Shown here: positions 76-13,343 of the stretch, piece by piece
Layout: every line of letters starts with the position of its first letter
How positions within the stretch are numbered: position 1 is the stretch's first letter
NCBI GenBank assembly: GCA_000991805.1
Contig: LBSF01000022.1
Coordinates: 1-14,412, forward strand
DNA: 14,412 nt
Direction of reading: 5' to 3'
Source: a candidate division WS6 bacterium GW2011_GWC2_36_7
GTDB taxonomy: Bacteria; Patescibacteriota; Dojkabacteria; SC72
Notes under the pieces: generated by a model
Databases searched by the model: none
Seen by the model: only the letters and a program-made list of their open reading frames with translations
Told to the model about the DNA's origin: nothing
Translations under genes and position numbers: made by a program

Positions 76-104
76 TTGTAAGAATAGATGTTGTACAATA
101 AACA
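76..104 (+). promoter_or_regulatory. putative promoter of the response regulator gene, -10 against the start codon
   Basis: TACAAT at 94-99 matches the sigma-70 -10 consensus in five of six positions and ends 5 nt before the ATG at 105. The expected transcription start is therefore at or next to the start codon, which would give a leaderless mRNA. TTGTAA copies at 65-70 and 76-81 are not at ideal -35 spacing. No Shine-Dalgarno sequence is present. Confidence 0.45.
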
Positions 105-821
105 ATGATTTCAAAAGCGATAGGACCCAAAGTCTTGTTAGTTGAAGAAAACAACCATTTGTTCAATATACTAAAGCCCTGTTTCTCAAACCACAATGTC
201 CGATTAACTAGAGTAAAGAACATATCAGAAATACTTTCTATCTTGAATAATAAATATTCTTTATTACTTTTAGACATACACTTACCCAATAGTGAAAACC
301 AATTGATGGTGAAAAGAATTCGAGAAGAAAACCTATTTACTCCAATAATTGCTTTTGGACCTAGGAATTCCGATTATGAGATAGAATCCTTTCGTCTTGG
401 AATCAACATTTATCATTCTAAACCTATTCATTGTAAATTATTACAAGCGCAAATATCACAATTAATTTCTTCCTTTGAGAAACCCGTTATTCTTAATATG
501 GGTGACATCCGGATAGAAATATCATCTCATTCCTTTTTTATATTTAATAAGAGAATTCCCCTAACATATCAAGAATTTCATCTCTTGTTTTTATTAATTA
601 TGGCAAATGGTAATATATTAAGTAAAAACACAATTAGTCGTAACTTTACACATAATCATAGAGATGTCAGTTATGCCGCTATCGATACACTTATCAGTCG
701 GATAAGAACAAAGTTACGCCCTCATTTGGAAGATACTTTCATAAAAACGGAATATAAGCTTGGATACCGCATTAATCCTAAGTATTTGAAATCTTTTTGC
801 ATTGAAAAACTCGTAGACTGA
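105..821 (+). CDS. OmpR/PhoB-family response regulator (orphan)
   Basis: A 238-residue two-domain transcription regulator. Residues about 9-125 form a receiver domain: the acidic pair is E14/E15, the predicted phospho-acceptor is D57 in LLLLDIHLP, and the conserved lysine is K106 in SKP. Residues about 130-228 form a winged-helix DNA-binding domain of the OmpR/PhoB type, with LTYQEFHLLFLL before the recognition region and DTLISRIRTKLRP as the probable recognition helix. The conserved Thr/Ser of the TAR motif, which completes phosphorylation switching, is replaced by Gly (G85 in IIAFGPR), though Y103 is kept. No histidine kinase lies in the window, so the partner is encoded elsewhere or the receiver is not conventionally phosphorylated. 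The gene ends in TGA, which supports a standard stop code. Def starts 17 nt downstream. The family call is strong; the target genes are unknown. Confidence 0.85.
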   Translation: MISKAIGPKVLLVEENNHLFNILKPCFSNHNVRLTRVKNISEILSILNNKYSLLLLDIHLPNSENQLMVKRIREENLFTPIIAFGPRNSDYEIESFRLGINIYHSKPIHCKLLQAQISQLISSFEKPVILNMGDIRIEISSHSFFIFNKRIPLTYQEFHLLFLLIMANGNILSKNTISRNFTHNHRDVSYAAIDTLISRIRTKLRPHLEDTFIKTEYKLGYRINPKYLKSFCIEKLVD

Positions 822-838
822 TATGATATACTTATTCT
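802..838 (+). promoter_or_regulatory. putative promoter of the peptide deformylase gene
   Basis: TTGAAA at 802-807 is followed after 19 bp by TATACT at 827-832. The -10 box ends 6 nt before the ATG at 839, so initiation would fall on the start codon. The -35 lies inside the end of the response-regulator gene. The spacer is slightly longer than the ideal 17 bp, so this remains a sequence-based guess. Confidence 0.45.
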
Positions 839-1330
839 ATGGAAAAATCATTTGACATAATAACAATTGCAAAACCAGACCAAGAGAAACTCTTACGTCA
901 GAAGAGTCTTTTGGTTACACCCGATGAACTAAAGAAAAAGGAGTTCAATGAATTTCTTTCAGACCTTTTGTATACAGCACAACATAGTGAAGATCAGGGA
1001 AATGTCCCTGCTGGGGGCATTGCAGCAATACAGGTAGGAAAAAACAAAAGAGTTTTCTATTCCTTGAATTACGATACGGATCAATGGGAGTTATTCATTA
1101 ATCCGACAGTAGAACCACATGGTTTCTTAAAGTTTTCAGGTGAGGAGGGTTGCCTAAGTGTTCCCAAATTAGTTGGGAATGTTTCCAGATACTATAAAAT
1201 CAAAGTACGATTTCAGGATACAAATGGGAATTGGATAACGAAAAAGTACAATGATATAAATGCTGCAAGCATACAGCATGAGATGGATCACTTGGAAGGG
1301 ATCCTGTTCATTGATAGAATGGATAAATAA
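839..1330 (+). CDS. def: peptide deformylase
   Basis: A 163-residue enzyme that removes the formyl group from the N-terminal methionine of new proteins in the cytoplasm. All three family motifs are present. Motif 1 is GGIAAIQ (residues 59-65), with Ile in place of the usual Pro of GxGxAAPQ. Motif 2 is EEGCLSV with metal-binding C105. Motif 3 is QHEMDHLEG, supplying ligands H147 and H151 and catalytic E148. Length is normal for the family (about 150-190). The N-terminal 55 residues are less conserved, as is common. The stop is 23 nt before the next gene, which probably shares its transcript. No Shine-Dalgarno sequence precedes the ATG; the start is supported by the typical N-terminal length and the adjacent -10 box. 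Confidence 0.95.
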   Translation: MEKSFDIITIAKPDQEKLLRQKSLLVTPDELKKKEFNEFLSDLLYTAQHSEDQGNVPAGGIAAIQVGKNKRVFYSLNYDTDQWELFINPTVEPHGFLKFSGEEGCLSVPKLVGNVSRYYKIKVRFQDTNGNWITKKYNDINAASIQHEMDHLEGILFIDRMDK

Positions 1331-1353
1331 AATAAATTCTTTACTGCCAACAG

Positions 1354-2484
1354 ATGAAACAATTACCAATACTTGTAACAACTCTCCTAACATTCTCCCT
1401 GCTCATAACTCCAGTGATGGCCACAACAGATACCTCTGTTTCAGATGTAGTGGGCAACAATAATACTGTCGCTACCAATTCCACCTCTCAGACATCCTCA
1501 GCTGAAATAGATAATGAGATTCAATTGGATATGCCAATACAAACTGACAATCCTAGTACGATAATTACTTTTGTTAATCCAGCCAAGGACAAGAGTTCTA
1601 TTCAATTAGAAATTGATAGCAAGGGTTTCTCAAATATCACAAGTCCATATACATTTTCAGCACTAAGTATTGGCAAGCACACTTTAGAATTTAAATATAA
1701 AGATGAAAATGATACGACTCAAATCTATGATACTTCTATTATTATAATCCCACGCGCACCAATTTTAGGTGCTCCTGTAATAGGAACCGAAGATGTAACA
1801 ATCGCTGGAACAGGTTTAGCTAATTCAGAAGTCATCGTAATCCTTTCAAGTGGTAGCTCTGTATTTACTGAGAACGCAACTATTGATGACGAGGGCCGAT
1901 GGAGTATAAACTTCAAAAAAACTGACTTAACAAAGGATATATATTCTCTGAATGCATATACTCGCAGATATGGGTATGCCAGTAATCTCTCAGAAACGAT
2001 AAAATTTACTCTTGACAGTCATTCTTCCTCTTTTAACTCTAATATCTCGGCATTTAGCCTTAGCAATATCACATTGGAATCTATAACTAATTGGGCGATA
2101 AGCAATCAGACATATCTCATAACTGGCGCATCATGTTTGCTTCTCGGCATAATGTTTGGAATCCTCTTTGTATCAACGAGAAAGAAGAAAATCGTGCAAA
2201 AAGCTGAAAAGAAAGTGGCCGAGGAATTTGTAAAAATAGATCCCAAGGAGAAAGATGTAACACTTCGAGAAAAGTTAATGGGAATGGCAAAGCCAACAAT
2301 ACCTAGCCCAGAGAAAAAAAGAGATGATAAAGATGGGAGGGAAGATAAGGCTGAAGAAAAGACGGAAGAGACAGTTATTAACAAGATTGATTTTCTAAAG
2401 GACTTTAAAAACTTTGACCCTGACAATACAAAAGGCGAGGAGAAAAAATCAACCGTAGAGGTATCTCTTACATCAAAAAAATAA
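1354..2484 (+). CDS. secreted Ig-like-domain protein with C-terminal membrane anchor and charged cytoplasmic tail
   Basis: A 376-residue surface protein of unknown function. Residues 1-24 look like a Sec signal peptide: KQ, then a hydrophobic core, then VMA as a likely signal-peptidase I site. A Thr/Ser/Asn-rich stretch (about 25-65) follows. Two beta-rich segments come next; the second (about 135-220, with APVIGTEDVTIAGTGLANSE and DDEGRWSINF) has the look of a bacterial Ig-like fold. A single membrane helix at about 255-273 is followed by RKKK, so the tail is cytoplasmic. That tail (about 100 residues) is rich in Lys, Glu and Asp and is probably disordered or helical. The layout suggests a cell-surface adhesin or scaffold touching a cytoplasmic partner, but no specific function can be assigned. 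It lies 23 nt after def. Confidence 0.75.
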   Translation: MKQLPILVTTLLTFSLLITPVMATTDTSVSDVVGNNNTVATNSTSQTSSAEIDNEIQLDMPIQTDNPSTIITFVNPAKDKSSIQLEIDSKGFSNITSPYTFSALSIGKHTLEFKYKDENDTTQIYDTSIIIIPRAPILGAPVIGTEDVTIAGTGLANSEVIVILSSGSSVFTENATIDDEGRWSINFKKTDLTKDIYSLNAYTRRYGYASNLSETIKFTLDSHSSSFNSNISAFSLSNITLESITNWAISNQTYLITGASCLLLGIMFGILFVSTRKKKIVQKAEKKVAEEFVKIDPKEKDVTLREKLMGMAKPTIPSPEKKRDDKDGREDKAEEKTEETVINKIDFLKDFKNFDPDNTKGEEKKSTVEVSLTSKK

Positions 2485-2510
2485 ATTTCGTGGTAAAATA
2501 CCAATGATTA
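2485..2510 (+). promoter_or_regulatory. extended -10 promoter of tRNA-Leu(CAG)
   Basis: TAAAAT at 2494-2499, preceded by TGG (2491-2493), gives an extended -10 element. It ends 11 nt before the tRNA start at 2511. The element sits inside a perfect small palindrome, TGGTA-AAA-TACCA (2491-2503). No good -35 is seen; TTACAT at 2469-2474 is 19 bp away. The same TGGTAAAAT sequence precedes mraZ. Confidence 0.5.
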
Positions 2511-2594
2511 GCCAAGGTGGTGAAATTGGTATACACGCTACGTTCAGAACGTAGTCCTAGCAATAGGTTGGGGGTTCAAATCCCCCCCCTGGCA
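2511..2594 (+). tRNA. tRNA-Leu (anticodon CAG)
   Basis: An 84-nt class II tRNA that folds fully. The acceptor arm is GCCAAGG with CCCTGGC, the D stem GTG/CAC, and the anticodon stem CTACG/CGTAG around loop TTCAGAA (anticodon CAG, reading CUG). The long variable arm is CCTA-GCAA-TAGG, and the T arm is GGGGG-TTCAAAT-CCCCC. The discriminator is A73, as expected for leucine. CCA is not encoded and must be added by the nucleotidyltransferase. The acceptor stem has one mismatch, A5-C68. The last base directly abuts the stop codon of the convergent solute-binding-protein gene. Confidence 0.95.
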
Positions 2595-4355
2595 TTAATA
2601 ACTCCAATACCAATCTTCAATATTCCAGTATCGCTCATATGAAAAATTAGTGTTATCTAAATCAACTCCTTTTAACTTGCTATCGAAATAGAATACAAAG
2701 GAAGGATGGTATAAAAATATCACAGGGGCATCCGCCATTAAATATCTTTGAAACTGTAAATATTTTGTTTTCCTTACAGTCTCATTTGTTGTCTTTCTCG
2801 CATCTTCCAATAGAATATCAACCCTTTCATACTGATATCCCGAAAGATTCAAATTAGGGTCATCAACCTTTAGGGAATGCCATAAATTATATTGATCAGG
2901 ATCAACAGTTGTTTCTACCTCATAGAGCAACATCTCAAAATCTCTCTTAGCAATTGTTTGCTGAGATATTTCATTGTAATCCAAGCTATCAGGTTTAATT
3001 ACAATTCCTTCTTTATCAAACAATTTTACAATTGTATCGATCAATCGATTATTTATATCGTTATCTAAATAACTCAAAGTAAAACTAAGAATTTTGTTTT
3101 CCTTTGATTCATAGTAACCTGTCTCTGCATTTTTGGTATAACCAGCCGTTTTTAAGTATGTCACAGCTTTTTCAGGACTATATTCATAGTAGGATATCTC
3201 ATCATTAAATACCCAGGAATCTTCAGGATATGGCCCATGCATTACTGTGCCCTGGATATTTGATTCATGTAACAAAGCGTTCACATCGAGAAGGTAGTTG
3301 ATTCCAATTCTAATGTTTTTGTCCTTTAGATCTTCTTTTCTTAAATTCAGGAAAAGAATTCTGTTTCTAAAATCCTCGGTCTTTGAAAGAACTCCGAAAG
3401 AGGTATATTCCTGCATGAAGGAAAGAGCCTCGTTATCCCAACTACCCAAAGCATCGATATCCCCAACCCTCATAGCAGTTTCCAAAGACGAAAAGTCTGG
3501 ATATATTCGAAGCTCAATATTCTTCAATCTAGGAGAATAGTTATCGTAAGGATTATCTACTAAATAGACAGCATTCTGCTCTTTTTTCTCAATCATATAT
3601 TTTCCACTGCCCATTGCGTTATTCACGAAAGCGGTACGTATTAGACCCAAATCGATATCTTCAAACGCTTTTTGTGGAATAATATATATTGAAACTGCTT
3701 CATAAAAAGTTGGGTTTGCCTCTGTCAAAGTAAACTGCAAAGTTTTATCATCCACCTTAACGATATCAATACCTACCAAGGCTGCCCCCACAGAATCGTC
3801 TTGCGCAAGTAATATCGCAGTGTTAAAGGTAAAAAGCACGTCATCAACAGTAAGCTCGGTTCCATCTTGCCAATATAAACCTTCATCAACAGTAAAGATA
3901 TACGTCAGACTATCTTTTGACGCTGTCCATGCTTTTGCAACGCCTGGTTCTGGTTTCCCATTTTTATCAATATACACAAATTTCTCAAATATTAGGCTGT
4001 CAATTGCCTTGTCTACATAGTTTGTAGTGGCAAAGAGAGGATTAAACGAGGATAGGGCACCAACCATACCTTCCGTGTATCTATCATTGGAAAACGCACC
4101 TTTCTTTAATACGTTTGCAAAAACATTCGATTGCAGGAATAGTATAAAAAGAAAAGCCATTAGAGAAAAAAGAAAAATATAGCTGAATGGAACCGCACCC
4201 TTAAAGATCTTTTCAATCACATTGGGATAATTCCACAAACCATCTCTCCAATCCTTTGAGTCATCATGAGCTTCAACCATCTTGAGATTCTTAAACTCGT
4301 TCAGGGCGTCCCTCATGGACAAAGCACTTTTTTGTTCTTTCGTATTTGATTTCAT
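2595..4355 (-). CDS. membrane-anchored family-5 (oligopeptide-type) ABC solute-binding protein
   Basis: A 586-residue extracytoplasmic substrate-binding protein of the SBP_bac_5 (OppA/DppA/NikA) type. Residues 1-53 are hydrophilic and presumably cytoplasmic. One membrane helix at about 54-75 (FLFSLMAFLFILFL) acts as an uncleaved signal anchor, and no lipobox cysteine is seen. The binding domain covers about 95-570: FNPLFATTNY near its start, then LTYIFTVDEGLYWQDGTELT and VDDVLFTFNTA, a classical family signature, and APVIFLYHPS near the C-terminus. Such proteins normally deliver peptides to a permease/ATPase set, but none is encoded here. SecG lies 11 nt upstream on the same strand, so the two are probably co-transcribed. 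Direct anchoring replaces the lipoprotein anchor usual in Gram-positive relatives. The ligand cannot be told from sequence. Confidence 0.85.
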   Translation of the reverse strand: MKSNTKEQKSALSMRDALNEFKNLKMVEAHDDSKDWRDGLWNYPNVIEKIFKGAVPFSYIFLFSLMAFLFILFLQSNVFANVLKKGAFSNDRYTEGMVGALSSFNPLFATTNYVDKAIDSLIFEKFVYIDKNGKPEPGVAKAWTASKDSLTYIFTVDEGLYWQDGTELTVDDVLFTFNTAILLAQDDSVGAALVGIDIVKVDDKTLQFTLTEANPTFYEAVSIYIIPQKAFEDIDLGLIRTAFVNNAMGSGKYMIEKKEQNAVYLVDNPYDNYSPRLKNIELRIYPDFSSLETAMRVGDIDALGSWDNEALSFMQEYTSFGVLSKTEDFRNRILFLNLRKEDLKDKNIRIGINYLLDVNALLHESNIQGTVMHGPYPEDSWVFNDEISYYEYSPEKAVTYLKTAGYTKNAETGYYESKENKILSFTLSYLDNDINNRLIDTIVKLFDKEGIVIKPDSLDYNEISQQTIAKRDFEMLLYEVETTVDPDQYNLWHSLKVDDPNLNLSGYQYERVDILLEDARKTTNETVRKTKYLQFQRYLMADAPVIFLYHPSFVFYFDSKLKGVDLDNTNFSYERYWNIEDWYWSY

Positions 4356-4366
4356 AATCTACTCAA

Positions 4367-4597
4367 TTATGCAGAGTATTTTAGAATTAGTAGTGAGAGT
4401 ATAACCAGAACAAGTATTAAACCTATGGTTAGATAATACAGGACTTTTTCCAATCCTCGTTTTGTTCTAAATACTTCACCACCACCACCAAACATTTTAC
4501 CCAAACCCTCAGCACGGTTCTGAAGTAATACAGTGATTACTAAAGCACCACATACAACGATTTGAGATATTAAAAATATTTTTAATGTGTTATCCAT
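4367..4597 (-). CDS. secG: SecG, preprotein translocase subunit
   Basis: A 76-residue subunit of the SecYEG channel that assists SecA-driven export. It has the family topology: membrane helix about 6-24, a short cytoplasmic loop, and a second helix about 53-73. The loop carries the signature: LLQNRAEGLG, then a Gly-rich stretch (FGGGGEVF), then RGLEKVLYYLT. The length is typical (70-110). It precedes the membrane-anchored solute-binding protein and follows a small membrane protein gene, whose stop codon overlaps its -10 box. The start is set by a perfect TATAAT 7 nt upstream and by the usual distance to helix 1. Confidence 0.92.
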   Translation of the reverse strand: MDNTLKIFLISQIVVCGALVITVLLQNRAEGLGKMFGGGGEVFRTKRGLEKVLYYLTIGLILVLVILSLLILKYSA

Positions 4598-4610
4598 AAA
4601 TGCTATTATA
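4598..4610 (-). promoter_or_regulatory. -10 box of secG, 7 nt from the start codon
   Basis: On the minus strand a perfect TATAAT (4605-4610) is followed by 7 nt and the secG ATG. It overlaps the stop codon (4606-4608) of the upstream gene. No good -35 is visible. The spacing predicts transcription starting at the start codon. Confidence 0.55.
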
Positions 4611-5013
4611 CACTATCTAATTCTTTGTAGATAGAACAAATTAAGGCAGAAAGGAGGGAGACTCCAGCAATAGTAATCATCGGTGTAACTGAAAAACTCG
4701 CTATTTCTATTGTTCCCCAACTAATTCCTTCAAATATGTATGGATTAATATATAGCCCTGTCATGAATGTTTTCAAAAGAAAGAAAACACCAATCAGCAA
4801 TATGATAGACATTAAGAAATGCGTAGGAAAATTGGCCTTAACGGTTAAGAATTTTAATAATGGTCCAGCTACCATTACTGTCAATGTTAAGATCAGTATT
4901 GAAACAAAAAAATACAACGGTATAGTAGGTAACACAATTCCTTTGTTAAACAATCCTATGACAAAGTAGAGGATTAAAAAGTATACAAACAAAGATTTAA
5001 TAAATTGCTTCAT
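4606..5013 (-). CDS. small four-helix integral membrane protein
   Basis: A 135-residue protein dominated by four hydrophobic helices (about 8-24, 29-50, 64-84 and 105-127), with short loops and a charged C-terminus (YKELDSV). The size and the GPLLKFLTVKANFPTHFLMS segment between helices 2 and 3 recall the phage-holin-4 superfamily of small four-helix proteins common in bacterial chromosomes. The resemblance is only by eye and is not a firm assignment. It is the first gene of a minus-strand cluster with secG and the solute-binding protein, and is divergent from pyruvate kinase across 96 bp. A weak TTTACT (minus strand, 5021-5026) lies 7 nt before the ATG. Function unknown. Confidence 0.7.
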   Translation of the reverse strand: MKQFIKSLFVYFLILYFVIGLFNKGIVLPTIPLYFFVSILILTLTVMVAGPLLKFLTVKANFPTHFLMSIILLIGVFFLLKTFMTGLYINPYIFEGISWGTIEIASFSVTPMITIAGVSLLSALICSIYKELDSV

Positions 5014-5060
5014 ATTTAGCAGTAAAAATATTAAGACATAAATAATATATCACACCATCA

Positions 5061-5109
5061 TAGACATGAATAGTTACTTTAAGTATACTAGAAATATCAA
5101 ACCTGCCTA
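5061..5109 (+). promoter_or_regulatory. sigma-70-type promoter of pyruvate kinase
   Basis: TAGACA at 5061-5066 and TATACT at 5084-5089 are separated by exactly 17 bp; each matches its consensus in five of six positions. Transcription would start around 5096, leaving a leader of about 13 nt before the ATG at 5110. The leader contains no purine-rich ribosome-binding site. This is the best-formed promoter for a protein gene in the window. Confidence 0.6.
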
Positions 5110-6468
5110 ATGAAAAATTATTCTAAAACTAAAATAATAGCCACTATTGGACCATCTTCTTGGGATGCTCCTGTATTAAAGGAGATGTATTCTGCTGGAA
5201 TGGATATTGCTCGAATAAATGCTTCCTTTGCCGATTTTGCAGAGTTGGAAAGAGTTTCAAACACACTAAGAACAACATCACCACGAATTGGAATCATGCT
5301 TGATACCCAGGGACATAAGATAAGAGTAACTGGATTAGAACATGAAATACAAATAGAAGGGGAAATTTCAATTCCAAATACTTTCGATATTACATACCCA
5401 GATTTATACAAGGACGTATCTGTTGGAACAAGAATTCTCTTAGATGATGGAAATATTCAATTAGTTGTTAAAGCTATACAAGATATCGAAGTAATATGTA
5501 CTGTAATACAACCTGGCATATTGAAACCAAACAAGACTGTAAATATTCCCGATGTTAACTTAAACTTTCCAGCTATAACAGAAAAAGATAAAGCCGACAT
5601 TCTCTTTGCCGTAGAACATAGATTTGATTTTCTCTCTCTTTCCTTTGTAAGAAACAGGGAAGACATATTGACTGTGAGAGAATTAATCGGTGACAGTAAT
5701 ATCAAATTAATAGCTAAGATTGAGAATGTACAAGGAGTAGAGAACTTTGATGAAATACTTGCCGCAACTGATGCCATTATGATTGCGAGAGGTGATTTAG
5801 GTATTGAAATACCATTTGAAAAGGTTCCAATATTACAAAAGCAATTTATATACAAATGTCGACAAGCAGGGAAACCCGTTATCGTTGCTACTCAAATGCT
5901 TGAATCTATGAAAGAGTCCATTCAACCTACTAGGGCGGAGATTTCAGACGTTGCGAATGCTGTAATTTCAGCAGAGACTTCTACAGGGAGAAATCCCGTT
6001 GTGGCTGTTGCTACTATGCAAAAAATTGCAAAGGAGGCCGAATCAGTATTACAACAAAGCCCAATATATGGGCATACGTCAGCACCTTTAGAAGTTGATG
6101 AATTGTGTAGGAATCTATGTGATATTTCTGAGAGTATGAAATTGAAGGGTATTGTAGTTATATCCAATACAGGACAAACAGTGTTAAGTCTTTCAAGGCA
6201 TAGACCCAATGCTCCTATATGGGAGATTAGTAGTTCGTTAGAACAGATTAGACACGATTCCTTACTTAATGGGGTTACAGGTTTCTTTCTTAAAGATTTA
6301 CCTCAGGATCGAGATGAGTGTACTCAGCATGCTGTGGAAGTGGTTTATGCACAAGGGGAGTTGGATTTAAACGATAAAGTTGCTATTATTAGCGGTAGTT
6401 CTATAAGACATAACACAACTGATGCTATTTTAGAGATAGTTCAAGTTAAGAATGTCTTATCCAGATAA
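5110..6468 (+). CDS. pyk: pyruvate kinase (with an 8-residue internal gap)
   Basis: A 452-residue glycolytic enzyme transferring phosphate from phosphoenolpyruvate to ADP. Conserved features in order: KIIATIGPSS (8-17); R35, N37 and S39 in ARINASF (substrate and K+ site); D65/T66 in LDTQGHKIR; a complete B domain with LLDDGNIQL; SLSFVRNREDI; K203 and E205 in LIAKIEN; D229 in ARGDLGIEIP; and GKPVIVATQMLESM with PTRAEISDVAN. The C-terminal regulatory-type domain is present. After DVANAV the family normally reads LDGTDAVMLSGET; here it goes straight to ISAET (286-290), so eight residues are missing just before barrel strand 8, while the catalytic-site Thr (T290) is kept. Usual length is about 470. 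The substitutions NFSHG to NASFA and GP to GH are also unusual. tRNA-Cys follows 3 nt after the stop. The identity is secure; full activity is likely but unproven. Confidence 0.93.
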   Translation: MKNYSKTKIIATIGPSSWDAPVLKEMYSAGMDIARINASFADFAELERVSNTLRTTSPRIGIMLDTQGHKIRVTGLEHEIQIEGEISIPNTFDITYPDLYKDVSVGTRILLDDGNIQLVVKAIQDIEVICTVIQPGILKPNKTVNIPDVNLNFPAITEKDKADILFAVEHRFDFLSLSFVRNREDILTVRELIGDSNIKLIAKIENVQGVENFDEILAATDAIMIARGDLGIEIPFEKVPILQKQFIYKCRQAGKPVIVATQMLESMKESIQPTRAEISDVANAVISAETSTGRNPVVAVATMQKIAKEAESVLQQSPIYGHTSAPLEVDELCRNLCDISESMKLKGIVVISNTGQTVLSLSRHRPNAPIWEISSSLEQIRHDSLLNGVTGFFLKDLPQDRDECTQHAVEVVYAQGELDLNDKVAIISGSSIRHNTTDAILEIVQVKNVLSR

Positions 6469-6471
6469 CAC

Positions 6472-6547: not shown

Positions 6548-6555
6548 TTTATATG

Positions 6556-6596
6556 TTGAAAATAGGGACCTTTTAGATTAGAATAGCGTAAATTAT
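6556..6596 (+). promoter_or_regulatory. promoter of tRNA-Leu(TAA)
   Basis: TTGAAA (6556-6561) and TAGAAT (6579-6584) are separated by the ideal 17 bp. The predicted start near 6591 is about 6 nt before the mature 5' end of the tRNA. It lies in the 49-bp spacer between the two tRNA genes. Confidence 0.65.
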
Positions 6597-6680
6597 GCCG
6601 AGATGGTGGAACTGGCAGACACGCGGGACTTAAAATCCCGTTCTAGAAATAGAGTGAGGGTTCAAGTCCCTCTCCCGGCA
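6597..6680 (+). tRNA. tRNA-Leu (anticodon TAA)
   Basis: An 84-nt class II tRNA: acceptor GCCGAGA/TCCCGGC, D stem GTG/CAC, anticodon stem CGGGA/TCCCG around loop CTTAAAA (anticodon TAA), long variable arm TCTA-GAAA-TAGA, T arm GAGGG-TTCAAGT-CCCTC, and discriminator A73. CCA is not encoded. The acceptor stem has a single mismatch, A5-C68, at exactly the position seen in the tRNA-Leu at 2511. The cupin gene follows 28 bp later. Confidence 0.95.
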
Positions 6681-6695
6681 TATTCAATAACTTCA

Positions 6696-6708
6696 TGTAA
6701 TACCTCAT
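6696..6708 (+). promoter_or_regulatory. -10-like box of the cupin gene
   Basis: TGTAAT (6696-6701), five of six matches to TATAAT, ends 7 nt before the ATG at 6709, the same geometry as at several other genes here. Read-through from tRNA-Leu could also supply transcription. No ribosome-binding site is seen. Confidence 0.35.
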
Positions 6709-7050
6709 ATGAAGATACTCAAATCTCTACAAGCTCAAGAATTCAAGAATGGAGATACATGCACGGCATTTGAATATCCATTAGAAGAGAAATCTATTAA
6801 TATTGCAGTTATAAAACTAAAAGGAAGGTATCCTGAGACAGGACAAGCTATGAATACAGAATGCAAAGAAATTGCATATGTAACTGAAGGTTCTGGCAAA
6901 GTATCTGTAGAAGACAAAACAATTGAAGTAAACAAAGGAGATGTTGTTTTAATTGAACCAGGAGAAAAATTTTATTGGGATGGAGAACTAACAATGCTTA
7001 TGCCATGTACACCGGCTTGGACACCAGAGCAATATAAGCATATAGCTTAA
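6709..7050 (+). CDS. small cupin-fold protein lacking the metal-binding histidines
   Basis: A 113-residue single-domain protein with the shape of a cupin: beta-rich, with EIAYVTEGSGKVSVED (54-69) matching the end of cupin motif 1 and KGDVVLIEPGEKFYW (76-90) matching motif 2. The HxH that should stand about four residues before E54 is absent (A47-M48-N49-T50), and the motif-2 His is replaced by an aromatic residue. The only His in the protein is H111, so the usual metal site is missing. Such proteins may bind a small ligand or carbohydrate, or act as sensors; no substrate can be named. Its TAA overlaps the stop codon of the convergent rubredoxin-like gene within a TTAA sequence. Confidence 0.75.
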   Translation: MKILKSLQAQEFKNGDTCTAFEYPLEEKSINIAVIKLKGRYPETGQAMNTECKEIAYVTEGSGKVSVEDKTIEVNKGDVVLIEPGEKFYWDGELTMLMPCTPAWTPEQYKHIA

Positions 7051-7304
7051 TCAGCCTCATCAAACTTATCCTGATCCTTGTTACCACACTTAGGACATAT
7101 CATCTCTCCTTTATACAATCCTTCATATACATACCCACATACAAGACACTTCCATCTTCTCCATGAGCTATCTAAACCATGAGGAGGTGGCTCTTTAACT
7201 ACAAATTCATCGGGGTTAACAGGTGCAACATTAGAAGTAATATCGGGTGTTGGAGTAGGTGTAGTAATGCCATTTTGTTGATTATTATTTAATATATCCT
7301 CCAT
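7047..7304 (-). CDS. rubredoxin-like iron- or zinc-binding protein
   Basis: An 85-residue protein. Residues 1-45 are a polar Asn/Thr/Pro-rich, probably disordered arm. Residues 50-85 form a rubredoxin-like domain: WKCLVCGYVYEG (C53, C56) and CPKCG (C70, C73), followed by DKF. This resembles the C-terminal domain of rubrerythrin and short rubredoxins, which bind one Fe (electron transfer) or Zn in a Cys4 site. The stretch between the two Cys pairs is short, as in rubrerythrin-type domains. It has no signal peptide and is probably cytoplasmic. Its first 20 nt overlap the end of the CMP kinase gene, implying co-transcription and translational coupling. Electron transfer is a plausible role but a structural zinc site cannot be excluded. 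Confidence 0.8.
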   Translation of the reverse strand: MEDILNNNQQNGITTPTPTPDITSNVAPVNPDEFVVKEPPPHGLDSSWRRWKCLVCGYVYEGLYKGEMICPKCGNKDQDKFDEAD

Positions 7305-7896
7305 CTTTAATATGTTTTAAAATTAGATCATAAGTCTCCTTCTCATTTAAATAGGAAGAGTCTATGACAATATCATTGTACTCCCTAGGATCTGAATAAT
7401 TAATACCTTGAATATCATAATATCTTCTGTAATCCATATTATATCGCTTAACCAAGTCTAACCTCATTCGAATATATGGAATAATATTTTTGAAGCTTAT
7501 CTCAAACCCATACTTCGTCATAGCTCTCAGTGTTCTAACATGCAAATTCGCTTCTATCCAAATCTTTACAGTACAAGGAATCTCATTCTTAGTTGCTAAT
7601 GCGGCAAAGTTCTTAGACTCAATAAGCACATTGGGAGATTCAATCTCTTTGTAAAGAAGATTGTCAACCTTCTTGTCTAATTCTTTTAACAATATCTCAT
7701 TCTTTTGGAAATATGCACGATCATTATTTGCGTACCCCTCTTCTTCTAGAAGCTTTCTAAAGATTCCACCACCATATACACGTTTCAAATTGAAATGTTC
7801 TGCCAACATCTTCGCAATAGTAGAGCTACCACTACCACCAGGACCACCTATTACAAAAAGATATCCTAAATCTTTAGATCTAATCTTTTGATTCAT
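7285..7896 (-). CDS. cmk: archaeal-type cytidylate (CMP) kinase
   Basis: A 203-residue P-loop nucleoside monophosphate kinase, likely phosphorylating CMP/dCMP with ATP in the cytoplasm. The P-loop is GGPGGSGSST (17-26); the Lys of the normal GxGK[ST] is replaced by Ser (S24). This resembles the archaeal Cmk group, where the motif reads GSGTTT. GGGIFRKLLEEEG (42-54) corresponds to the substrate-binding segment of that group, and RYNMDYRRYYDIQGINYSDP (about 141-160), followed by YNDIVIDSS, is also characteristic. The typical bacterial Cmk is longer and has the Lys. It overlaps the rubredoxin-like gene by 20 nt and is divergent from ftsW across 31 bp. Other nucleotide specificities within the superfamily are possible. 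Confidence 0.8.
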   Translation of the reverse strand: MNQKIRSKDLGYLFVIGGPGGSGSSTIAKMLAEHFNLKRVYGGGIFRKLLEEEGYANNDRAYFQKNEILLKELDKKVDNLLYKEIESPNVLIESKNFAALATKNEIPCTVKIWIEANLHVRTLRAMTKYGFEISFKNIIPYIRMRLDLVKRYNMDYRRYYDIQGINYSDPREYNDIVIDSSYLNEKETYDLILKHIKDGGYIK

Positions 7897-7927
7897 ACAC
7901 TAATTATAGTATATTAATAATCAGACT
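7897..7927. promoter_or_regulatory. back-to-back promoters between cmk and ftsW
   Basis: The 31-bp divergent spacer holds a perfect TATAAT on the minus strand (7903-7908, 6 nt from the cmk ATG) and AATAAT, or TAATAAT, on the plus strand (7915-7921, 6 nt from the ftsW ATG). Each -35 region would lie inside the opposite gene, and polymerases at the two sites could not bind at once. Both predicted transcripts would start at the start codon. Confidence 0.5.
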
Positions 7928-9142
7928 ATGTCCAATCCAAATACTGTCCAAAAACGAAGAACAAAAAATATACTAACAGGGCACAAACCAGATAGTATAA
8001 TACTAATATTTGCCATAATGATGGCAATATTCGGGGCAATTATGATATTTGATGCCAGTGTATATCAGGCCAATACAGTCTTCAATGATCAATTCTACTT
8101 CTTAAAATCCCAGCTCGTATGGCTGGTAATGGGTATCATTCCCGCGGTATTAATATATTTCTGGGACTATCGTAAAATCCTTAAGCTAGCATTCCCCGCA
8201 TTAATCATAACAATTGTACTCCTGGTTCTTGTACTTGTCCTTGGAGAAGCCCTCAATGGATCAAAACGATGGTTTGCCATAGGTTCACTACCAAAAATAC
8301 AACCTGCAGAATTCGCAAAGATAACCTTAATTATGTATCTCTCTAGTTGGCTCGCTAAAAGGGATTACAAATACAAAGACTTTAAATCTGCATTAAGAGA
8401 AGGATTTGTAAAAAACCTTTTAGGATTCTTAGCCATCCTTGGTACTGTAGCCGTATTGATCCTCTTAGAACCTGACCTTGGTACAACCATGATTCTTTGT
8501 ATCACTTGCTTCATAATGTTCCTAATGGCTGGAGAGGATAGGATACACACATTGGCCTCAGGCTCTGTGTTGCTCCTACTTGTGCCAGTAGCAGCGTTAG
8601 CAGCAATACTAGAACCATACCGGCTTAAGAGAGTCATGACCTTTATGAGCTTACTCTTCACAGGAAAAGTCGCAGATCCTCAGGGAAGTGGATATCAAAT
8701 GCAACAGATATTAATTGGTATTGGATCAGGAGGGATATTTGGAACTGGCTTTGGTCAATCAAGACAGAGATTCGGATATCTGGTTGAGAATACCGCATTT
8801 ACAGATTCCATATTTGCAGTAATACTTGAAGAATTAGGCTTCTTAGGAGGGACCCTAATCATAATTGCATGGTTAGTATTCCTCTGGAGAGGATTAAAAA
8901 TTGCCATGGGAGCTCCAGATAAGCAGGGACGATTACTGGCAGCAGGGATAACTGTATGGCTTGTAATGCAAACACTTTTGAACATTGCTGCCAACGTTGG
9001 ATTTATTCCACTTACAGGAATGCCTATACCATTGCTTAGCTATGGGGGATCAAGTACTATCGTTTCCCTCATAGGAATTGGTATACTATTAAATATTAGT
9101 AAATACTCAAATATTCAGAATGGACAAACAAAAGTTAACTAA
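7928..9142 (+). CDS. ftsW: FtsW, SEDS-family peptidoglycan glycosyltransferase
   Basis: A 404-residue polytopic membrane protein with about ten helices after a short basic cytoplasmic N-terminus. FtsW polymerises lipid II into glycan strands at the septum with its partner class B PBP. Family motifs: GSKRWFAIG and QPAEFAKI, LLEPDLGTTMI, then DPQGSGYQMQQILIGIGSGG and GTGFGQSRQRFGYL. ENTAFTDSIFAVILEELGF contains the predicted catalytic D293, and IPLLSYGGSS lies near the C-terminus. FtsW is preferred over RodA because it sits in a cluster with murG, murB and murA; sequence alone does not separate the two cleanly. The canonical LPEAHTDFIF reads VENTAFTDSIF here, a mild divergence. The stop lies 23 nt inside murG. 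Confidence 0.9.
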   Translation: MSNPNTVQKRRTKNILTGHKPDSIILIFAIMMAIFGAIMIFDASVYQANTVFNDQFYFLKSQLVWLVMGIIPAVLIYFWDYRKILKLAFPALIITIVLLVLVLVLGEALNGSKRWFAIGSLPKIQPAEFAKITLIMYLSSWLAKRDYKYKDFKSALREGFVKNLLGFLAILGTVAVLILLEPDLGTTMILCITCFIMFLMAGEDRIHTLASGSVLLLLVPVAALAAILEPYRLKRVMTFMSLLFTGKVADPQGSGYQMQQILIGIGSGGIFGTGFGQSRQRFGYLVENTAFTDSIFAVILEELGFLGGTLIIIAWLVFLWRGLKIAMGAPDKQGRLLAAGITVWLVMQTLLNIAANVGFIPLTGMPIPLLSYGGSSTIVSLIGIGILLNISKYSNIQNGQTKVN

Positions 9143-10286
9143 AAAGATATTGATTACAGGTGGAGGATCTGGCGGACATGTATCAGCAGCACTATCAATT
9201 ATCTCTTCACTACAAGAAAAGTATATTTTAGACAAAGAACATTTCCTTTACGTTGGTGGAGATTTAGGTATGGAAGGAGAAAGAACAGGGAATTCAATTG
9301 AACAGAAATTGATGAAAGGAAAAGATTTCAATTGCAAATATATTAGGCCAGGTAAATTACAAAGGACTTTTTCATTTAATACCATAAGACTACTACTTAG
9401 AACCGTATTAGGGTTTTGGGATTCGTATAAAATAGTTCGAGAATTTAGACCTGATATCGTTATTTCAACAGGAGGTTTTGTTACTGTACATGTTTGTTTA
9501 ATGGCAAAACTTTTCAAAGCAAAGATCTATTTACATGAGCAAACAGCTACTGTCGGTCTAACAAACAATCTTGTTGGGAAGGTTTCTGAAAAAGTATTCA
9601 TCTCCTTCGAATCCTCAAGAAAGTATTTTACAAAAGCTGAAACTATTTTGACTGGGAATCTAGTTAAAGAGGATATCTTCAATATTAAGGGACAGGGGAA
9701 ATTAGCAGATACAATAAAACTGATGAAAGAACATCAAGATCAGTATCCAATCATATATATGTCTGGAGGAGGATTAGGCTCCCATTTAATCAACGATACT
9801 GTTAAGGAGTGTCTTCCTTTGTTACTTCAAAAATATCAGATAATTCTTCAAACTGGAGAGAATAGGGTCTTTAAGGATTTTAAAGCTCTACAAAATGCCA
9901 AGGCATCCTTGCCAAAGGAACTTCAAAGTAGGTTCTTACCTGTTACATATGTTCAAAGTCATGATATTGGCTATTTGTTAAACAATATCGATTTGTTTGT
10001 TGGTAGAGCAGGGGCTAATACTGTATATGAAATGGGAGTTCTACAGATTCCATCCATATTCATCCCGATACCCTGGGTTACACATAATGAGCAACAGATG
10101 AATGCAGAGGTTTTGGTCAAATTAGGATTAGCAGAAATAATTCAAGAAGGAGAGCTTACTTCAGGGTGTTTGGTGTTGAGAATAGATAGATTTTTTAAAA
10201 GGAAATTGGAAATAAACAAAGATGAGCTTAAAAAAGTATTTAAAACAGATGCGAATAAGTTGATACTTAAAGAAATTGGACTGTAA
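9120..10286 (+). CDS. murG: MurG, lipid II-forming GlcNAc transferase
   Basis: A 388-residue GT-B glycosyltransferase that adds GlcNAc from UDP-GlcNAc to lipid I on the inner membrane face. N-terminal glycine-rich loop: ITGGGSGGHVSAAL (12-25), with Ser for the common Thr in GGTGGH. Further signatures are PGKLQR, PDIVISTGGFVTV, IYLHEQTATVGLTN and TGNLVKEDIF. In the C-terminal domain: MSGGGLGS (214-221), VGRAGANTVYEMG with the UDP-binding Glu E304, and HNEQQMNAEVL. It is slightly longer than the usual 350-365 residues, mostly through the hydrophilic stretch around residues 190-210. It overlaps ftsW by 23 nt and murB by 11 nt, typical of translational coupling. The first Met gives a normal lead-in to strand 1. 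Confidence 0.92.
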   Translation: MDKQKLTKKILITGGGSGGHVSAALSIISSLQEKYILDKEHFLYVGGDLGMEGERTGNSIEQKLMKGKDFNCKYIRPGKLQRTFSFNTIRLLLRTVLGFWDSYKIVREFRPDIVISTGGFVTVHVCLMAKLFKAKIYLHEQTATVGLTNNLVGKVSEKVFISFESSRKYFTKAETILTGNLVKEDIFNIKGQGKLADTIKLMKEHQDQYPIIYMSGGGLGSHLINDTVKECLPLLLQKYQIILQTGENRVFKDFKALQNAKASLPKELQSRFLPVTYVQSHDIGYLLNNIDLFVGRAGANTVYEMGVLQIPSIFIPIPWVTHNEQQMNAEVLVKLGLAEIIQEGELTSGCLVLRIDRFFKRKLEINKDELKKVFKTDANKLILKEIGL

Positions 10287-11316
10287 TACTTTGCTCAAAA
10301 AAAATGTCTCCTTAAAGAACTACAATACCTTTGGCGTGAACGTTAACGCTAAACAGATGTATGAGATTCAAAATATCAAAGATCTCCAATCTCTATTTGA
10401 AGAAGGTATCATTTCTAATCCATTTCTGGTCTTAGGCGACGGTTCAAATATTCTTTTTACAAAAGACTTTGATGGAACAATCATAAAAATCAATTTACAT
10501 GGGAAGAAAATACTTGAGGATACAGATAAATATATAAAATTAAAAATCTCTGCAGGTGAAAAATTAGAAGAAATAGTCAAATGGACAGTTGAAAATAATT
10601 TGATAGGAATTCAGAATTTAGCACTAATTCCTGGAACAATAGGTGCTACACCAATTCAAAATGTTGGAGCCTATGGAGTTGAGATTAAGGATGTACTAGA
10701 AAGCGTAGAATTTTTTGATTTAAAGAATGGAATAGTAAAAACCATTTCTGGGTTAGATTGTGAATTCGGATACAGAGACAGTATTTTCAAACACGAGCTT
10801 AAGGGCTTAGCTATCGTCACTTCAATTACTATTAAATTAGAGAAATACAAACAACAAGAATTACCAGAACGATACTTGGCTTATGGAGACATCACTAAAG
10901 AACTTGAATCTCAATATTCAAAACCTTACACCCTTGAGAATCTATACCAATCCATCTGTAATATCCGAAAATCAAAACTCCCGGATGTAAAAGAATATGG
11001 TTCATGCGGAAGTACATTTCAGAATCCAATTGTCTCACTTGAACAATATATTGAGATTAAGAAAAAATACGAAAGTATACCTTCATTTCCAACTTCAGAA
11101 AGAAACTTTGTCAAAATCCCTGCAGCATATATCTTAGAAAAATTAGGATGGAAGAATAGGAGAGTCGGGAAATGCGGAACATGGACACACCCATTGATTG
11201 TTACTAACTATGATAATGCCAGCCCAAAAGATATTCTAGACGTTATTGAACAAATTCAGAAAGATTTCTATGATAATATTGGTGTAAGATTAGAAACTGA
11301 AATTAACATAATTTAA
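10276..11316 (+). CDS. murB: MurB, UDP-N-acetylenolpyruvoylglucosamine reductase (type I)
   Basis: An FAD/NADPH enzyme reducing the enolpyruvyl group made by MurA to lactyl, giving UDP-MurNAc; 346 residues if TTG 10276 is the start. FAD-binding motifs are NTFG (17-20), VLGDGSN (52-58) and PGTIGATPIQNVGAYG (119-134). GYRDSIF carries the conserved Arg. The proton-donor Ser is S246 in GSCGSTFQNP, and the C-terminal LETEI contains the conserved Glu. The length and C-terminal half (AYILEKLGW, HPLIVTN) fit type I, E. coli-like MurB. No in-frame ATG precedes the first motif. TTG at 10276 (overlapping murG) or TTG at 10291 are the candidates; 10291 follows the murG stop by 4 nt and leaves the usual short lead before KNVSLKNYNTFG. 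Confidence 0.92.
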   Translation: MDCNTLLKKNVSLKNYNTFGVNVNAKQMYEIQNIKDLQSLFEEGIISNPFLVLGDGSNILFTKDFDGTIIKINLHGKKILEDTDKYIKLKISAGEKLEEIVKWTVENNLIGIQNLALIPGTIGATPIQNVGAYGVEIKDVLESVEFFDLKNGIVKTISGLDCEFGYRDSIFKHELKGLAIVTSITIKLEKYKQQELPERYLAYGDITKELESQYSKPYTLENLYQSICNIRKSKLPDVKEYGSCGSTFQNPIVSLEQYIEIKKKYESIPSFPTSERNFVKIPAAYILEKLGWKNRRVGKCGTWTHPLIVTNYDNASPKDILDVIEQIQKDFYDNIGVRLETEINII

Positions 11317-11327
11317 GCATTAAAAGC

Positions 11328-12617
11328 ATGTCAAACTTAATAGTTAGAGGTGGAAATAAGTTAGAAGGAGAGATAACTCCCGCTGGAAATAAGAATTCTG
11401 CATTGCCAATTCTTTGTGCCACACTACTTACTAACGAGACAATTACGATAAACAACTTTCCCGATCTCACAGATGTAAATAAACTCGTAGAATTAATGAT
11501 CTCACTTGGTTCAAAAATAGAATGGAACAAGAATACCAATGTACTAACAGTTAACAATGCAAACTTTAAAGATTCTTTTGGCGATGCAGGCTTTCCTTTG
11601 GGAATGAGGGGTGCAATTCTACTCTTAGGCCCACTTGTTTCTAGAATGAAAAACATAGAGGTAAAAGAAGAGATAGGAGGATGCTCCTTGGGAATTAGAG
11701 AAATAGATCCACATCTTGAAGTACTAGAATCCCTTGGTTCAAAAATTAAACATAATAAAACGCTTAAGATAACAACTGAAAAATTAAAAGGCAATTTCCT
11801 TTGGCAGGAATACATGAGTGTAACAACCACTGAAAATTTCGTAATGGCAGCTGTAAAAGCAGAAGGTGTATCGACAATGGTTAATGCAGCATCTGAGCCA
11901 CATGTTCAAGACCTATGCAACCTCTTAGTTATGATGGGGGCAAAGATTGAAGGAATTGGTTCTTGCAAATTAGTAATAACTGGTGTAAATGAATTACATA
12001 GTGCAGAATTTACAATATCTGCAGATCATCATGAAATAACAACATTGTTAGCTCTTGGTGCAATGACAGGAGGGGAGATTAGGGTGAATAATTCAGAGCC
12101 TGAACACTTTCCATTAATTGTTAAATCTTTTAAAAAGCTTGGTGTAGATATTGAATATGATGGAGATACTGCAATCGTTAGGGAAAATCAGAAACTAGAA
12201 GTAGAAAAACCATATACTGCTAATATGCTTCCAAAGATAGAAGCTGCGCCATGGCCATATTTTCCTGCTGATCTAATGCCCCTTATGGTTGCATTGGCTG
12301 TTAAAGCAAAAGGCTCTATAATGTTCTGGAATAAACTATACGAGGGTGGTTTTCTTTGGATACCTGAGATGATAAAGTTTGGAGCAGAAATAATTATGTG
12401 TGATCCTCATAGAATAATTGTGTATGGAGATAGACCATTGAAAGCTGCCTCTGTAGACTCCCCTAACATCATTAGAGCAACGGTAGCACTTATGATGGTA
12501 GCGTTAACAATAGATGGGGAGAGTGTAATCAGGAATGCAGATAGTATCAAGAGAGCACATCCTAATTTTGTAGAGAATTTACAAAAGTTAGGTGCTGATA
12601 TAGCTTGGCAAGATTAG
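11328..12617 (+). CDS. murA: MurA-type UDP-GlcNAc 1-carboxyvinyltransferase
   Basis: A 429-residue EPSP-synthase-fold enzyme that starts peptidoglycan synthesis by adding enolpyruvate to UDP-GlcNAc. K22 and N23 in AGNKNSALP fall at E. coli numbering. MRGAILLLGPLVSR contains the Arg matching R91. The mobile-loop catalytic Cys is C119 in IGGCSLGIREID, with R124 matching R120, and the catalytic Asp is D315 in YFPADLM. The Cys implies fosfomycin sensitivity by family rule. One key position differs: where E. coli has ENRF (R331), this protein has EGGF (G341). The C-terminal SIKRAHPNFVENLQKLGAD keeps the Arg matching R397. It begins 11 nt after murB and ends the ftsW-murG-murB-murA unit. The product is confident; kinetics may be altered by the Arg loss. 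Confidence 0.9.
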   Translation: MSNLIVRGGNKLEGEITPAGNKNSALPILCATLLTNETITINNFPDLTDVNKLVELMISLGSKIEWNKNTNVLTVNNANFKDSFGDAGFPLGMRGAILLLGPLVSRMKNIEVKEEIGGCSLGIREIDPHLEVLESLGSKIKHNKTLKITTEKLKGNFLWQEYMSVTTTENFVMAAVKAEGVSTMVNAASEPHVQDLCNLLVMMGAKIEGIGSCKLVITGVNELHSAEFTISADHHEITTLLALGAMTGGEIRVNNSEPEHFPLIVKSFKKLGVDIEYDGDTAIVRENQKLEVEKPYTANMLPKIEAAPWPYFPADLMPLMVALAVKAKGSIMFWNKLYEGGFLWIPEMIKFGAEIIMCDPHRIIVYGDRPLKAASVDSPNIIRATVALMMVALTIDGESVIRNADSIKRAHPNFVENLQKLGADIAWQD

Positions 12618-12833
12618 TCACACTTTTCCCATAATTCTTTTTGTAAAATCTTTTCTTCGAAAATTTCCATCCTGAGAAATATCTTCTCTGTATTTACCTT
12701 TCGATTAGATAATACACCAAAATATTGCTATCGGTCCGTGTTCACAAATTAGACATCAAAGAGGGAATACCTCTTTAAACTGCCAATATCATATAGCCTA
12801 GAATATTATATCTTATCCTGTAGTTATATTTTC
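12618..12833. other. intergenic region between murA and the mraZ promoter
   Basis: About 216 bp of AT-rich sequence with no convincing gene on either strand, apart from the hairpin at 12758-12776 listed separately. A minus-strand reading frame of 18 codons (12614-12670) exists but has no support. No RNA gene fold was recognised. This is the longest gap without a gene in the window and separates the ftsW-murA unit from the mraZ unit. Confidence 0.6.
12758..12776 (+). terminator. possible hairpin terminator of the ftsW-murA unit
   Basis: AAAGAGG (12758-12764), a 5-nt loop and CCTCTTT (12770-12776) form a perfect 7-bp stem 140 bp after the murA stop. The 3' arm ends in UUU but no longer U tract follows, so efficiency as an intrinsic terminator is doubtful. 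It could instead be an attenuator or an RNA-stability element. Confidence 0.3.
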
Positions 12834-12893
12834 TTGACGGTTATATTGGTTAATGTTAAATTAGTGGCATGAAGTGGTGAGAAGTGGTAAAAT
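12834..12893 (+). promoter_or_regulatory. mraZ promoter region
   Basis: Two candidate promoters are visible. TTGACG (12834-12839) with TAAATT (12857-12862) at 17-bp spacing would start near 12869. An extended -10, TGG then TAAAAT (12888-12893), ends 6 nt before the mraZ ATG and would give a leaderless transcript. Both overlap the AGTGG repeats, so a protein bound there would block either. Confidence 0.5.
12863..12887 (+). promoter_or_regulatory. putative MraZ operator: three AGTGG repeats at 10-bp spacing
   Basis: AGTGG occurs at 12863-12867, 12873-12877 and 12883-12887, each separated by 5 nt, putting all copies on the same face of the helix. In E. coli MraZ binds TGGGN direct repeats separated by 5-nt spacers upstream of its own gene, and in mollicutes a related GTG-rich repeat serves. 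The position directly before the first gene of the mraZ operon fits autoregulation. The third copy touches the -10 box at 12888. Confidence 0.75.
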
Positions 12894-12899
12894 CCTAGA

Positions 12900-13343
12900 A
12901 TGTTAATAGGAGAATACCATGGAAAACTTAGTAATAAGAAAAGAACATCACTTCCAAAAAAGTTCAGAAATGAACTAGGTGAGAACATAATACTCACCAG
13001 GGGATATGAAGATGCACTTATACTTGTAAACCAAGATATGTGGCAAAAAATAGCCCAAGATGTTATAAATGGCTCTTTTATAAACAAAAACATCCGTGAT
13101 ACTAGTAGATTCTTAGTCGGAAGTGCTACAGAGATCCAAACAGATAAGCAAGGAAGATTCATAATCCCACAAGCATTATTTGATCATGCCCAATTAAAAG
13201 AAGACGTAGTCTTCATAGGTTTAGTAAATTGGGTAGAAGTTTGGGACAAAGATATGTGGCAAAAACGATTAGAATACCTAAAGAAAAACGGAGATGAAAT
13301 TGCTCAAGAATTGACTAATATGAACAACAAGAACAATGGATAA
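12900..13343 (+). CDS. mraZ: MraZ, transcriptional regulator of the division/cell-wall cluster
   Basis: A 147-residue DNA-binding protein built of two SpoVT/AbrB-like repeats that assemble into a ring and repress the mra operon. Repeat 1: GEYHGKLSNKKRTSLPKKFR (residues 4-23), where the usual DxKGR is NKKR. Repeat 2: EIQTDKQGRFIIP (about 78-90), with a canonical DKQGR. Both are followed by the expected W-containing helices (NQDMWQKI; DKDMWQKRLEYL). Length is normal (about 140-150). The ATG fits the family N-terminus M-x-x-GEY. It is directly preceded by three AGTGG repeats, its probable operator. Its end overlaps rsmH by 8 nt. No Shine-Dalgarno sequence is present. Confidence 0.93.
   Translation: MLIGEYHGKLSNKKRTSLPKKFRNELGENIILTRGYEDALILVNQDMWQKIAQDVINGSFINKNIRDTSRFLVGSATEIQTDKQGRFIIPQALFDHAQLKEDVVFIGLVNWVEVWDKDMWQKRLEYLKKNGDEIAQELTNMNNKNNG

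Follow-up and report, generated by a model that had tools for sequence, protein, structure and literature searches.

Predicted leaderless starts and a lineage-specific TAAnTT element mark gene starts in a Dojkabacteria genome

How are gene starts marked in a genome in which a promoter-like hexamer lies almost directly in front of the start codon? This question is raised by contig LBSF01000022.1 (14,412 nt, analysed over its whole length and called the window), which belongs to a 568-kb genome of Candidatus Dojkabacteria (labelled G000). An earlier note on this DNA had listed seven genes with such a hexamer and had predicted widespread leaderless mRNAs. All seven hexamers and their gaps (nucleotides between the end of the hexamer and the start codon) are exactly as described: TACAAT before a response regulator gene (gap 5), TATACT before def (6), TATAAT before secG (7), TGTAAT before a cupin gene (7), TATAAT before cmk (6), AATAAT before ftsW (6) and TAAAAT before mraZ (6). 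The counter-example that was given, pyruvate kinase (pyk) with TATACT at gap 20, is also correct. A large share of bacterial diversity, most of it uncultured, falls within the Candidate Phyla Radiation (CPR), and to our knowledge start choice by the reduced ribosomes of these bacteria has been little studied. We consider it quite likely that this Dojkabacteria genome has two main start modes, neither of which uses a Shine-Dalgarno (SD) sequence: leaderless starts, and starts marked by a second element, E2 (TAAnTT). In the first mode, about one fifth of the operon-first genes have a promoter of the sigma70 type whose extended −10 (TGnTATAAT) ends 5–7 nt before the start, and RNA polymerase would begin on the A of the ATG or about one base away from it, giving a leaderless mRNA. 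Many other genes, operon-internal ones included, carry TAAnTT ending 13–16 nt before the start, and this element would act in the RNA for ribosome recruitment.

Our sample of G000 comprised 41 stretches (458,107 bases, 81% of the genome) with 448 called genes, 417 of them with usable upstream DNA. The gene caller relied on a coding score, and the DNA upstream of the start was never consulted. Genes were classed as first when divergent, or when co-directional and more than 80 nt after the neighbour ("far"), and as internal when within 25 nt; the remainder were ambiguous. This resulted in 196 first, 68 ambiguous and 138 internal genes, with 15 genes at contig edges excluded from the counts. As background, the upstream regions were shuffled 300 times, and mean and maximum are given. 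Ortholog counts refer to distinct upstream rows only, after merging identical rows and a duplicate genome (locus L051 equals L090 of G008). For murA, 21 loci were found. Identity is 68–78% for 20 of them, of which 16 carry the label Candidatus Dojkabacteria.

At genome scale, TANNNT was found at gap 5–7 in 62 of the 196 first genes, compared to a shuffle mean of 30 and a maximum of 44. The stricter TATAAT type reached 40 (shuffle mean 9.1, maximum 18), about 31 above shuffle; as a control, it preceded 14 of 1111 Met codons lying in frame inside these genes. AT richness alone is therefore insufficient, as had been argued, and the positional enrichment before operon-first genes on which the prediction of leaderless mRNAs had been made to depend is present. 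For 796 genes from four Dojkabacteria genomes, a 6-mer scan run without a preset motif ranked TATAAT at gap 5–7 first (59 versus 6.9 expected). The peak has its mode at gap 6 in G000 and at gap 5 in G027, a genome of the same class in which 27 of 90 first genes carry the box (1.9 in shuffles). A weight matrix trained on first genes of the window and 20 contigs was tried on 20 other contigs, where it matched 8 of 46 divergent genes (against 3.0) and 4 of 24 ambiguous genes (against 0.6). First genes are enriched over internal genes in G000, with a modest contrast (40/196 versus 18/138). In 19 loci from named metagenome-assembled genomes, which were not otherwise used, cover a single neighbourhood and do not count as independent, the box was present in 39 of 146 first genes and in 1 of 100 internal genes (against 1.7). 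As controls, Escherichia coli K-12 had TANNNT at gap 5–7 in none of 53 first genes (4.0 expected) and SD-like words in 38, and Deinococcus radiodurans MP1 had TANNNT in 8 of 44 (0.8 expected). Summed over ten other CPR genomes, 33 of 359 first genes had the box (7.0 expected), which suggests that leaderless starts may be general in the CPR at a lower level; one of these genomes, G047, was at background (1 versus 0.9 expected).

To characterize the box, 109 first or ambiguous genes were aligned on it. TG precedes the −10 (T at 0.55, G at 0.48), and words resembling TTGACA are most frequent at a spacer of 17 (16 of the 109), with 10 at 18 and 0–8 at each of the other 14 spacers; neither feature was used for selection. 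The −35 is weak in box-bearing genes. With its extended −10 and the excess of TTGACA-like sequences at the 17-bp spacer, the box belongs to a real promoter. Position −1 is a pyrimidine in 0.80 of the first genes with a box, compared to 0.60 without. This anatomy is what initiation on the A of the ATG would look like, and it suggests such initiation rather than proving it. Taken together, position, promoter anatomy, ortholog conservation and controls make a predicted leaderless class in this genome well supported. What stands of the "widespread" leaderless mRNAs is thus a sizeable class of about one fifth of the first genes, not a rule, and the earlier note had overlooked the second signal, which marks many other genes.

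This second signal, E2, was found unprompted by expectation maximisation on internal and ambiguous genes, near gap 14–15. Its first three letters and the sixth are strict, the fourth is free and the fifth is mostly T. In G000, TAAnTT ended 13–16 nt before the start in 27 of 196 first, 21 of 68 ambiguous and 30 of 138 internal genes, with shuffle means of 4.2, 2.0 and 3.4. When four Dojkabacteria genomes were pooled, 53 of 259 internal and 39 of 139 ambiguous genes had E2 at this gap (background 0.34 and 0.22 per position). Summed over the four genomes, there were 56 matches in first genes and 92 in internal or ambiguous genes, versus 5.0 and 2.6 expected. The ten other CPR genomes were near background, with 9 and 6 versus 5.1 and 2.7. 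E2 was weaker in G027 (13 matches against 0.8), and the 19 named loci had it in 13 of 33 ambiguous (against 0.2), 17 of 100 internal (against 1.3) and 9 of 146 first genes (against 1.6). E2 is not an artefact of upstream stop codons, since TAAnTT starts with the upstream stop in only 15 of the 53 internal and none of the 39 ambiguous cases. It was present in 47 of 160 genes with a wholly intergenic site, and in 45 of 238 with a site that the upstream gene overlaps.

E2 is also linked to a promoter position of its own. A −10 box at gap 27–32 was present in 29 of 95 first or ambiguous genes with E2, compared to 50 of 442 without (p 9e-6), and in only 1 of 53 internal genes with E2. The link is carried by divergent genes (14/31 versus 26/209, p 5e-5). 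From such a box, the transcript would begin at or just before E2 and would carry a leader of about 20–25 nt. In five genomes, the broad E2 pattern occurred in 11 of 83 divergent genes with a leaderless box and in 59 of 215 without one (p 0.0095), while a control window gave 9/83 and 25/215. We infer a site of ribosome recruitment at the RNA level because operon-internal genes carry E2 no less often than first genes do, and without a box at gap 27–32; E2 is probably an RNA element with a role in translation.

SD words are not enriched in G000: they were found in 16 of 196 first genes (16 in control windows) and in 18 of 206 others (24 in control windows). SD pairing as the main start signal is therefore unsupported. 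The 3′ end of the 16S rRNA keeps the anti-SD CCUCC. All 8 readable tails of the Dojkabacteria order read GAAUUACCUCC, and that of G027 reads AAAUUACCUCC; GGAUCACCUCC is the reading in 19 of 29 tails from other parts of the phylum, and the remaining ones are variable. CCUCC is missing or altered in four CPR tails (L129 of G067, L146 of G050, L130 of G070 and L145 of G035). IF3 is encoded in Dojkabacteria, and G000 has a 408-aa open reading frame (L017, 972–2198) with four S1-domain matches in one frame, named bS1 here by domain content only. Domain 4 of bS1 has been placed near −12 to −15 of the mRNA (Baez et al. 2019, PMC6847099), a position that borders E2. That a 30S protein such as bS1 reads E2 is a guess. 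Tentatively, we propose that in Dojkabacteria SD has been replaced by UAAnUU at about −20, recognised sequence-specifically by a protein, in leadered and internal genes, beside leaderless starts, and that the part of the 16S tail immediately 5′ of the anti-SD changed along with this shift.

Several other explanations have to be considered. E2 could itself be a −10 of the TANNNT form, giving leaders of about 8 nt, and its fixed T1, A2 and T6 would fit such a box. However, at gap 13–16 TATAAT occurred 8 times (10.0 expected) and TATACT once (2.9 expected), yet TAAATT 61 times (14.3 expected). Moreover, no TGn precedes E2 (G 0.14 at the position needed), and E2 is no rarer in operon-internal genes than in first genes. 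We regard this possibility as unlikely.

The promoters might truly lie this close to the called ATG while the call is wrong, so that translation would begin at a later start codon behind a normal leader. The gene caller disagreed with the annotation for 24 of 81 E. coli K-12 genes (57 matched), and the called starts of cmk and ftsW in relatives are shifted by up to 21 nt. On the other hand, the mraZ start falls at exactly the same place in all 18 rows of relatives and the secG start in 7 of 12, with the other 5 within 9 nt, and random mis-starts would not yield a peak at one gap. Wrong start calls are thus a quite improbable source of the class. An equally improbable explanation is direct pairing of E2 with the altered 16S tail, with UAA-n-UU on AAUUA and n bulged. 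Tail change and E2 do occur in the same lineage, and n is unconstrained, as a bulge would allow. But TAATTC, which would pair perfectly with GAAUUA, shows no enrichment (3 versus 3.3), position 6 is strictly T, and the 16S rRNA contains no AAnUUA. Reasoning from known geometry, use of the rRNA on the start-codon side of CCUCC would also make a 14-nt gap sterically odd. Such pairing is unsupported by the letter preferences.

Chance hexamers in AT-rich DNA near starts are still less probable as an explanation. The stretches of G000 have mostly 34–38% GC and TANNNT is common in them, as the shuffles show. Nevertheless, both hexamer counts lie well above the largest shuffle value, and chance would not account for the gap peak at 6, TGn, the 17-bp −35 spacing or conservation in orthologs. 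In G043, a CPR genome of 61% GC, 5 of 44 first genes had the box versus 0.1 expected. For the class as a whole chance is refuted by these counts; for single genes such as ftsW and the cupin gene it may apply. Finally, a role of E2 as a sigma-dependent promoter-proximal pause element near +1 of first genes is hardly credible: −10 boxes do lie 6–11 nt upstream of E2 in many divergent or ambiguous genes, but E2 is no rarer within operons, where no nearby promoter was seen.

Some results weigh against the interpretation of a leaderless class beside E2 starts. The start calls are imperfect, as the E. coli benchmark shows, and this has probably diluted true upstream signals. The gain of the weight matrix on held-out contigs was modest (far genes 2 in 27 against 1.0, internal genes 3 in 60 against 1.2). 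Internal genes of G000 also carry the leaderless box above chance (18/138 against 4.8), which requires internal promoters or misjudged operons; this excess was not repeated in the 19 named loci. The stricter TATAAT type was absent from D. radiodurans, as from E. coli, so that the Deinococcus control bears on TANNNT only. There may be a trace of E2 outside Dojkabacteria, as the ten other CPR genomes gave 15 matches versus 7.8 expected, with 5 (4 and 1) in G038. For genes of the window, strict E2 was found in 0 of 19 distinct rsmH relatives and in only 8 of 18 murA relatives. The link between E2 and a −10 at gap 27–32 was borderline in ambiguous genes (p 0.06) and absent in far genes (3/25 versus 8/133, p 0.38). 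Exclusion of E2 by the box was not significant in far or ambiguous genes (14/59 versus 107/293, p 0.07), absent in internal genes (13/38 versus 96/265), and not seen among the divergent genes of G027 or G001. Finally, a minor SD set exists, with AAGGAG at gap 5–7 in 7 of the 796 genes versus 0.7 expected.

The features of the window are listed in Table 1. Family matches of secG, pyk, mraZ, rsmH, murA and murB reach the curated cut-off. The best match of def, cmk, ftsW and murG is their own family, but below the cut-off. The response regulator is OmpR/PhoB-like and below every cut-off, and for the "cupin" the only match is a weak one, of 21 bits, to mannose-6-phosphate isomerase.

Table 1. Upstream elements in the window. 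Coordinates refer to the window; gaps are in nt; fractions count relatives, with "box" meaning a leaderless box at gap 5–7.
Element	Gene (start)	Gap	Position	Strand	Relatives and remarks
−10 box TACAAT	response regulator (ATG 105)	5	94..99	+	TAnAAT type
Extended −10 TGATATACT	def (ATG 839)	6	824..832	+	box in 3/4
E2 TAAATT	membrane protein gene (ATG 1354)	15	1333..1338	+	in 1/6, whose starts are uncertain
−10 box TATAAT	secG (4597)	7	4605..4610	-	box in 11/12
E2-like TAATAT	135-aa protein gene (5013)	14	5028..5033	-	strict TAAnTT in 1/11 distinct, leaderless box in 3
E3 CTGCC	pyk (ATG 5110)	just before start	5103..5107	+	CTG[CT]C <=8 nt from start in 7/14
E2 TAACTT	cupin (ATG 6709)	15	6688..6693	+	
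TGTAAT, weak doubtful −10	cupin (ATG 6709)	7	6696..6701	+	no A at position 2
E2 TAATTT	rubredoxin-like gene (7304)	15	7320..7325	-	11/14 distinct; within cmk end
−10 box TATAAT	cmk (7896)	6	7903..7908	-	box in 4/14 distinct
TATATT, likelier −10	ftsW (ATG 7928)	12	7910..7915	+	TATATT in relatives; beside divergent cmk box
AATAAT, claimed −10, unsupported	ftsW (ATG 7928)	6	7916..7921	+	TATAAT-type box in 0/15 distinct
E2 TAATTT	murA (ATG 11328)	13	11309..11314	+	8/18 distinct; overlaps murB stop
Three GTGG repeats, 10-bp period	mraZ (ATG 12900)		12864..12887	+	upstream of and touching −10; read from sequence
Extended −10 TGGTAAAAT	mraZ (ATG 12900)	6	12885..12893	+	box in 17/18 distinct
E2-like TAATAT	rsmH (ATG 13336)	14	13316..13321	+	window sequence; no strict TAAnTT at site

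Not all of the seven examples hold equally well. They had been placed in separate transcription contexts, which by position does not apply to def, as it starts 17 nt after the stop of the response regulator gene on the same strand. For the response regulator and the cupin no ortholog was found among the relatives' loci searched. In most cmk relatives lacking a box at gap 5–7, the called start is shifted.

Two of the examples, ftsW and the cupin gene, are doubtful. AATAAT as the ftsW −10 is not supported by the relatives (Table 1). The likelier TATATT is kept in 15 of 15 distinct rows, at gap 12 (as in the window) in 12 and at gap 9 in 3. The divergent genes cmk and ftsW have a common promoter region of 31 bp (7896–7928), in which the adjoining −10 boxes are near-palindromic; this is also seen across the relatives listed. 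TGTAAT is doubtful as a −10 of the cupin gene since position 2 lacks an A, tRNA-Leu lies 27 nt upstream and TAACTT is present at gap 15. The cupin-like gene thus begins shortly past tRNA-Leu (region 6596–6709) and may be co-transcribed with it.

The GTGG repeats upstream of mraZ recur in relatives and presumably represent the MraZ operator. Autoregulation of the predicted leaderless transcript by MraZ is therefore probable. As the E2 of the rubredoxin-like gene lies within the end of cmk, coding constraint on cmk could explain its conservation.

A third signal, E3, has the sequence ACTGCC(C/T)A ending 1–7 nt before the start and is rarer than the other two. ACTGCC at gap 3–5 was found 8 times in the 796 genes (0.1 expected), and the looser CTGYY at gap 1–7 in 21 of the 417 G000 genes, chance matches included. 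Besides pyk, E3 is found upstream of 1354 and 14233 in the window, and an ftsL-like gene has ACTGCCCAG in G000, G001 and G008. The genes bearing E3 are perhaps a shared regulatory target.

With a kept anti-SD, no excess of SD, a predicted class of leaderless genes and a hexamer that is specific to the lineage and lies at a fixed distance, Dojkabacteria offer a concrete case in which replacement of a start signal can be tested. Annotation may be affected as well, as SD-based gene finders could place starts wrongly in this genome. In a literature search limited to titles and the openings of abstracts, and thus weak evidence of absence, no leaderless transcription or E2-like element was found described for Dojkabacteria or the CPR.

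Leaderless genes as such are already known, and the class described here extends a known phenomenon to a new lineage. In the "TA-led" leaderless genes of Actinobacteria and Deinococcus-Thermus, a TA-like −10 lies some 10 bp ahead of the start codon (Zheng et al. 2011, PMC3160421). In the low-GC genomes of that study the signal is TAtAAT with a TG peak, which matches what is seen in Dojkabacteria. The CPR is not among the groups named in the section of that paper used here, and Dojkabacteria add the lack of SD excess and a second, specific element. In the GeneMarkS-2 grouping, 21.6% of bacterial species are leaderless and 10.4% have non-canonical ribosome binding sites, as summarised in PMC9581028, a paper in which Patescibacteria is nowhere named; in Dojkabacteria both patterns occur in one genome. 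Non-SD Bacteroidetes likewise lack SD, keep the anti-SD and have an AT-rich start region (Accetto and Avgustin 2011, PMC3155529; Baez et al. 2019, PMC6847099), and bS1 has been proposed as the reader there. For F. johnsoniae, 87% of predicted transcripts have leaders of more than 10 nt (PMC6847099). Enrichment of AT or A in Bacteroidetes centres at −12/−13. This enrichment was not found in Dojkabacteria, where in internal genes A is only mildly high at −12 (0.53) and the signal lies at gap 13–16. At −3 and −6, where the Bacteroidetes type has A, internal genes show A at 0.54 and 0.49 against an A-rich background. Unlike the enrichment at −12/−13, the Dojkabacteria signal is a defined hexamer, TAAnTT, within −22 to −14, and this lineage-specific UAAnUU element is the more novel part of our findings.

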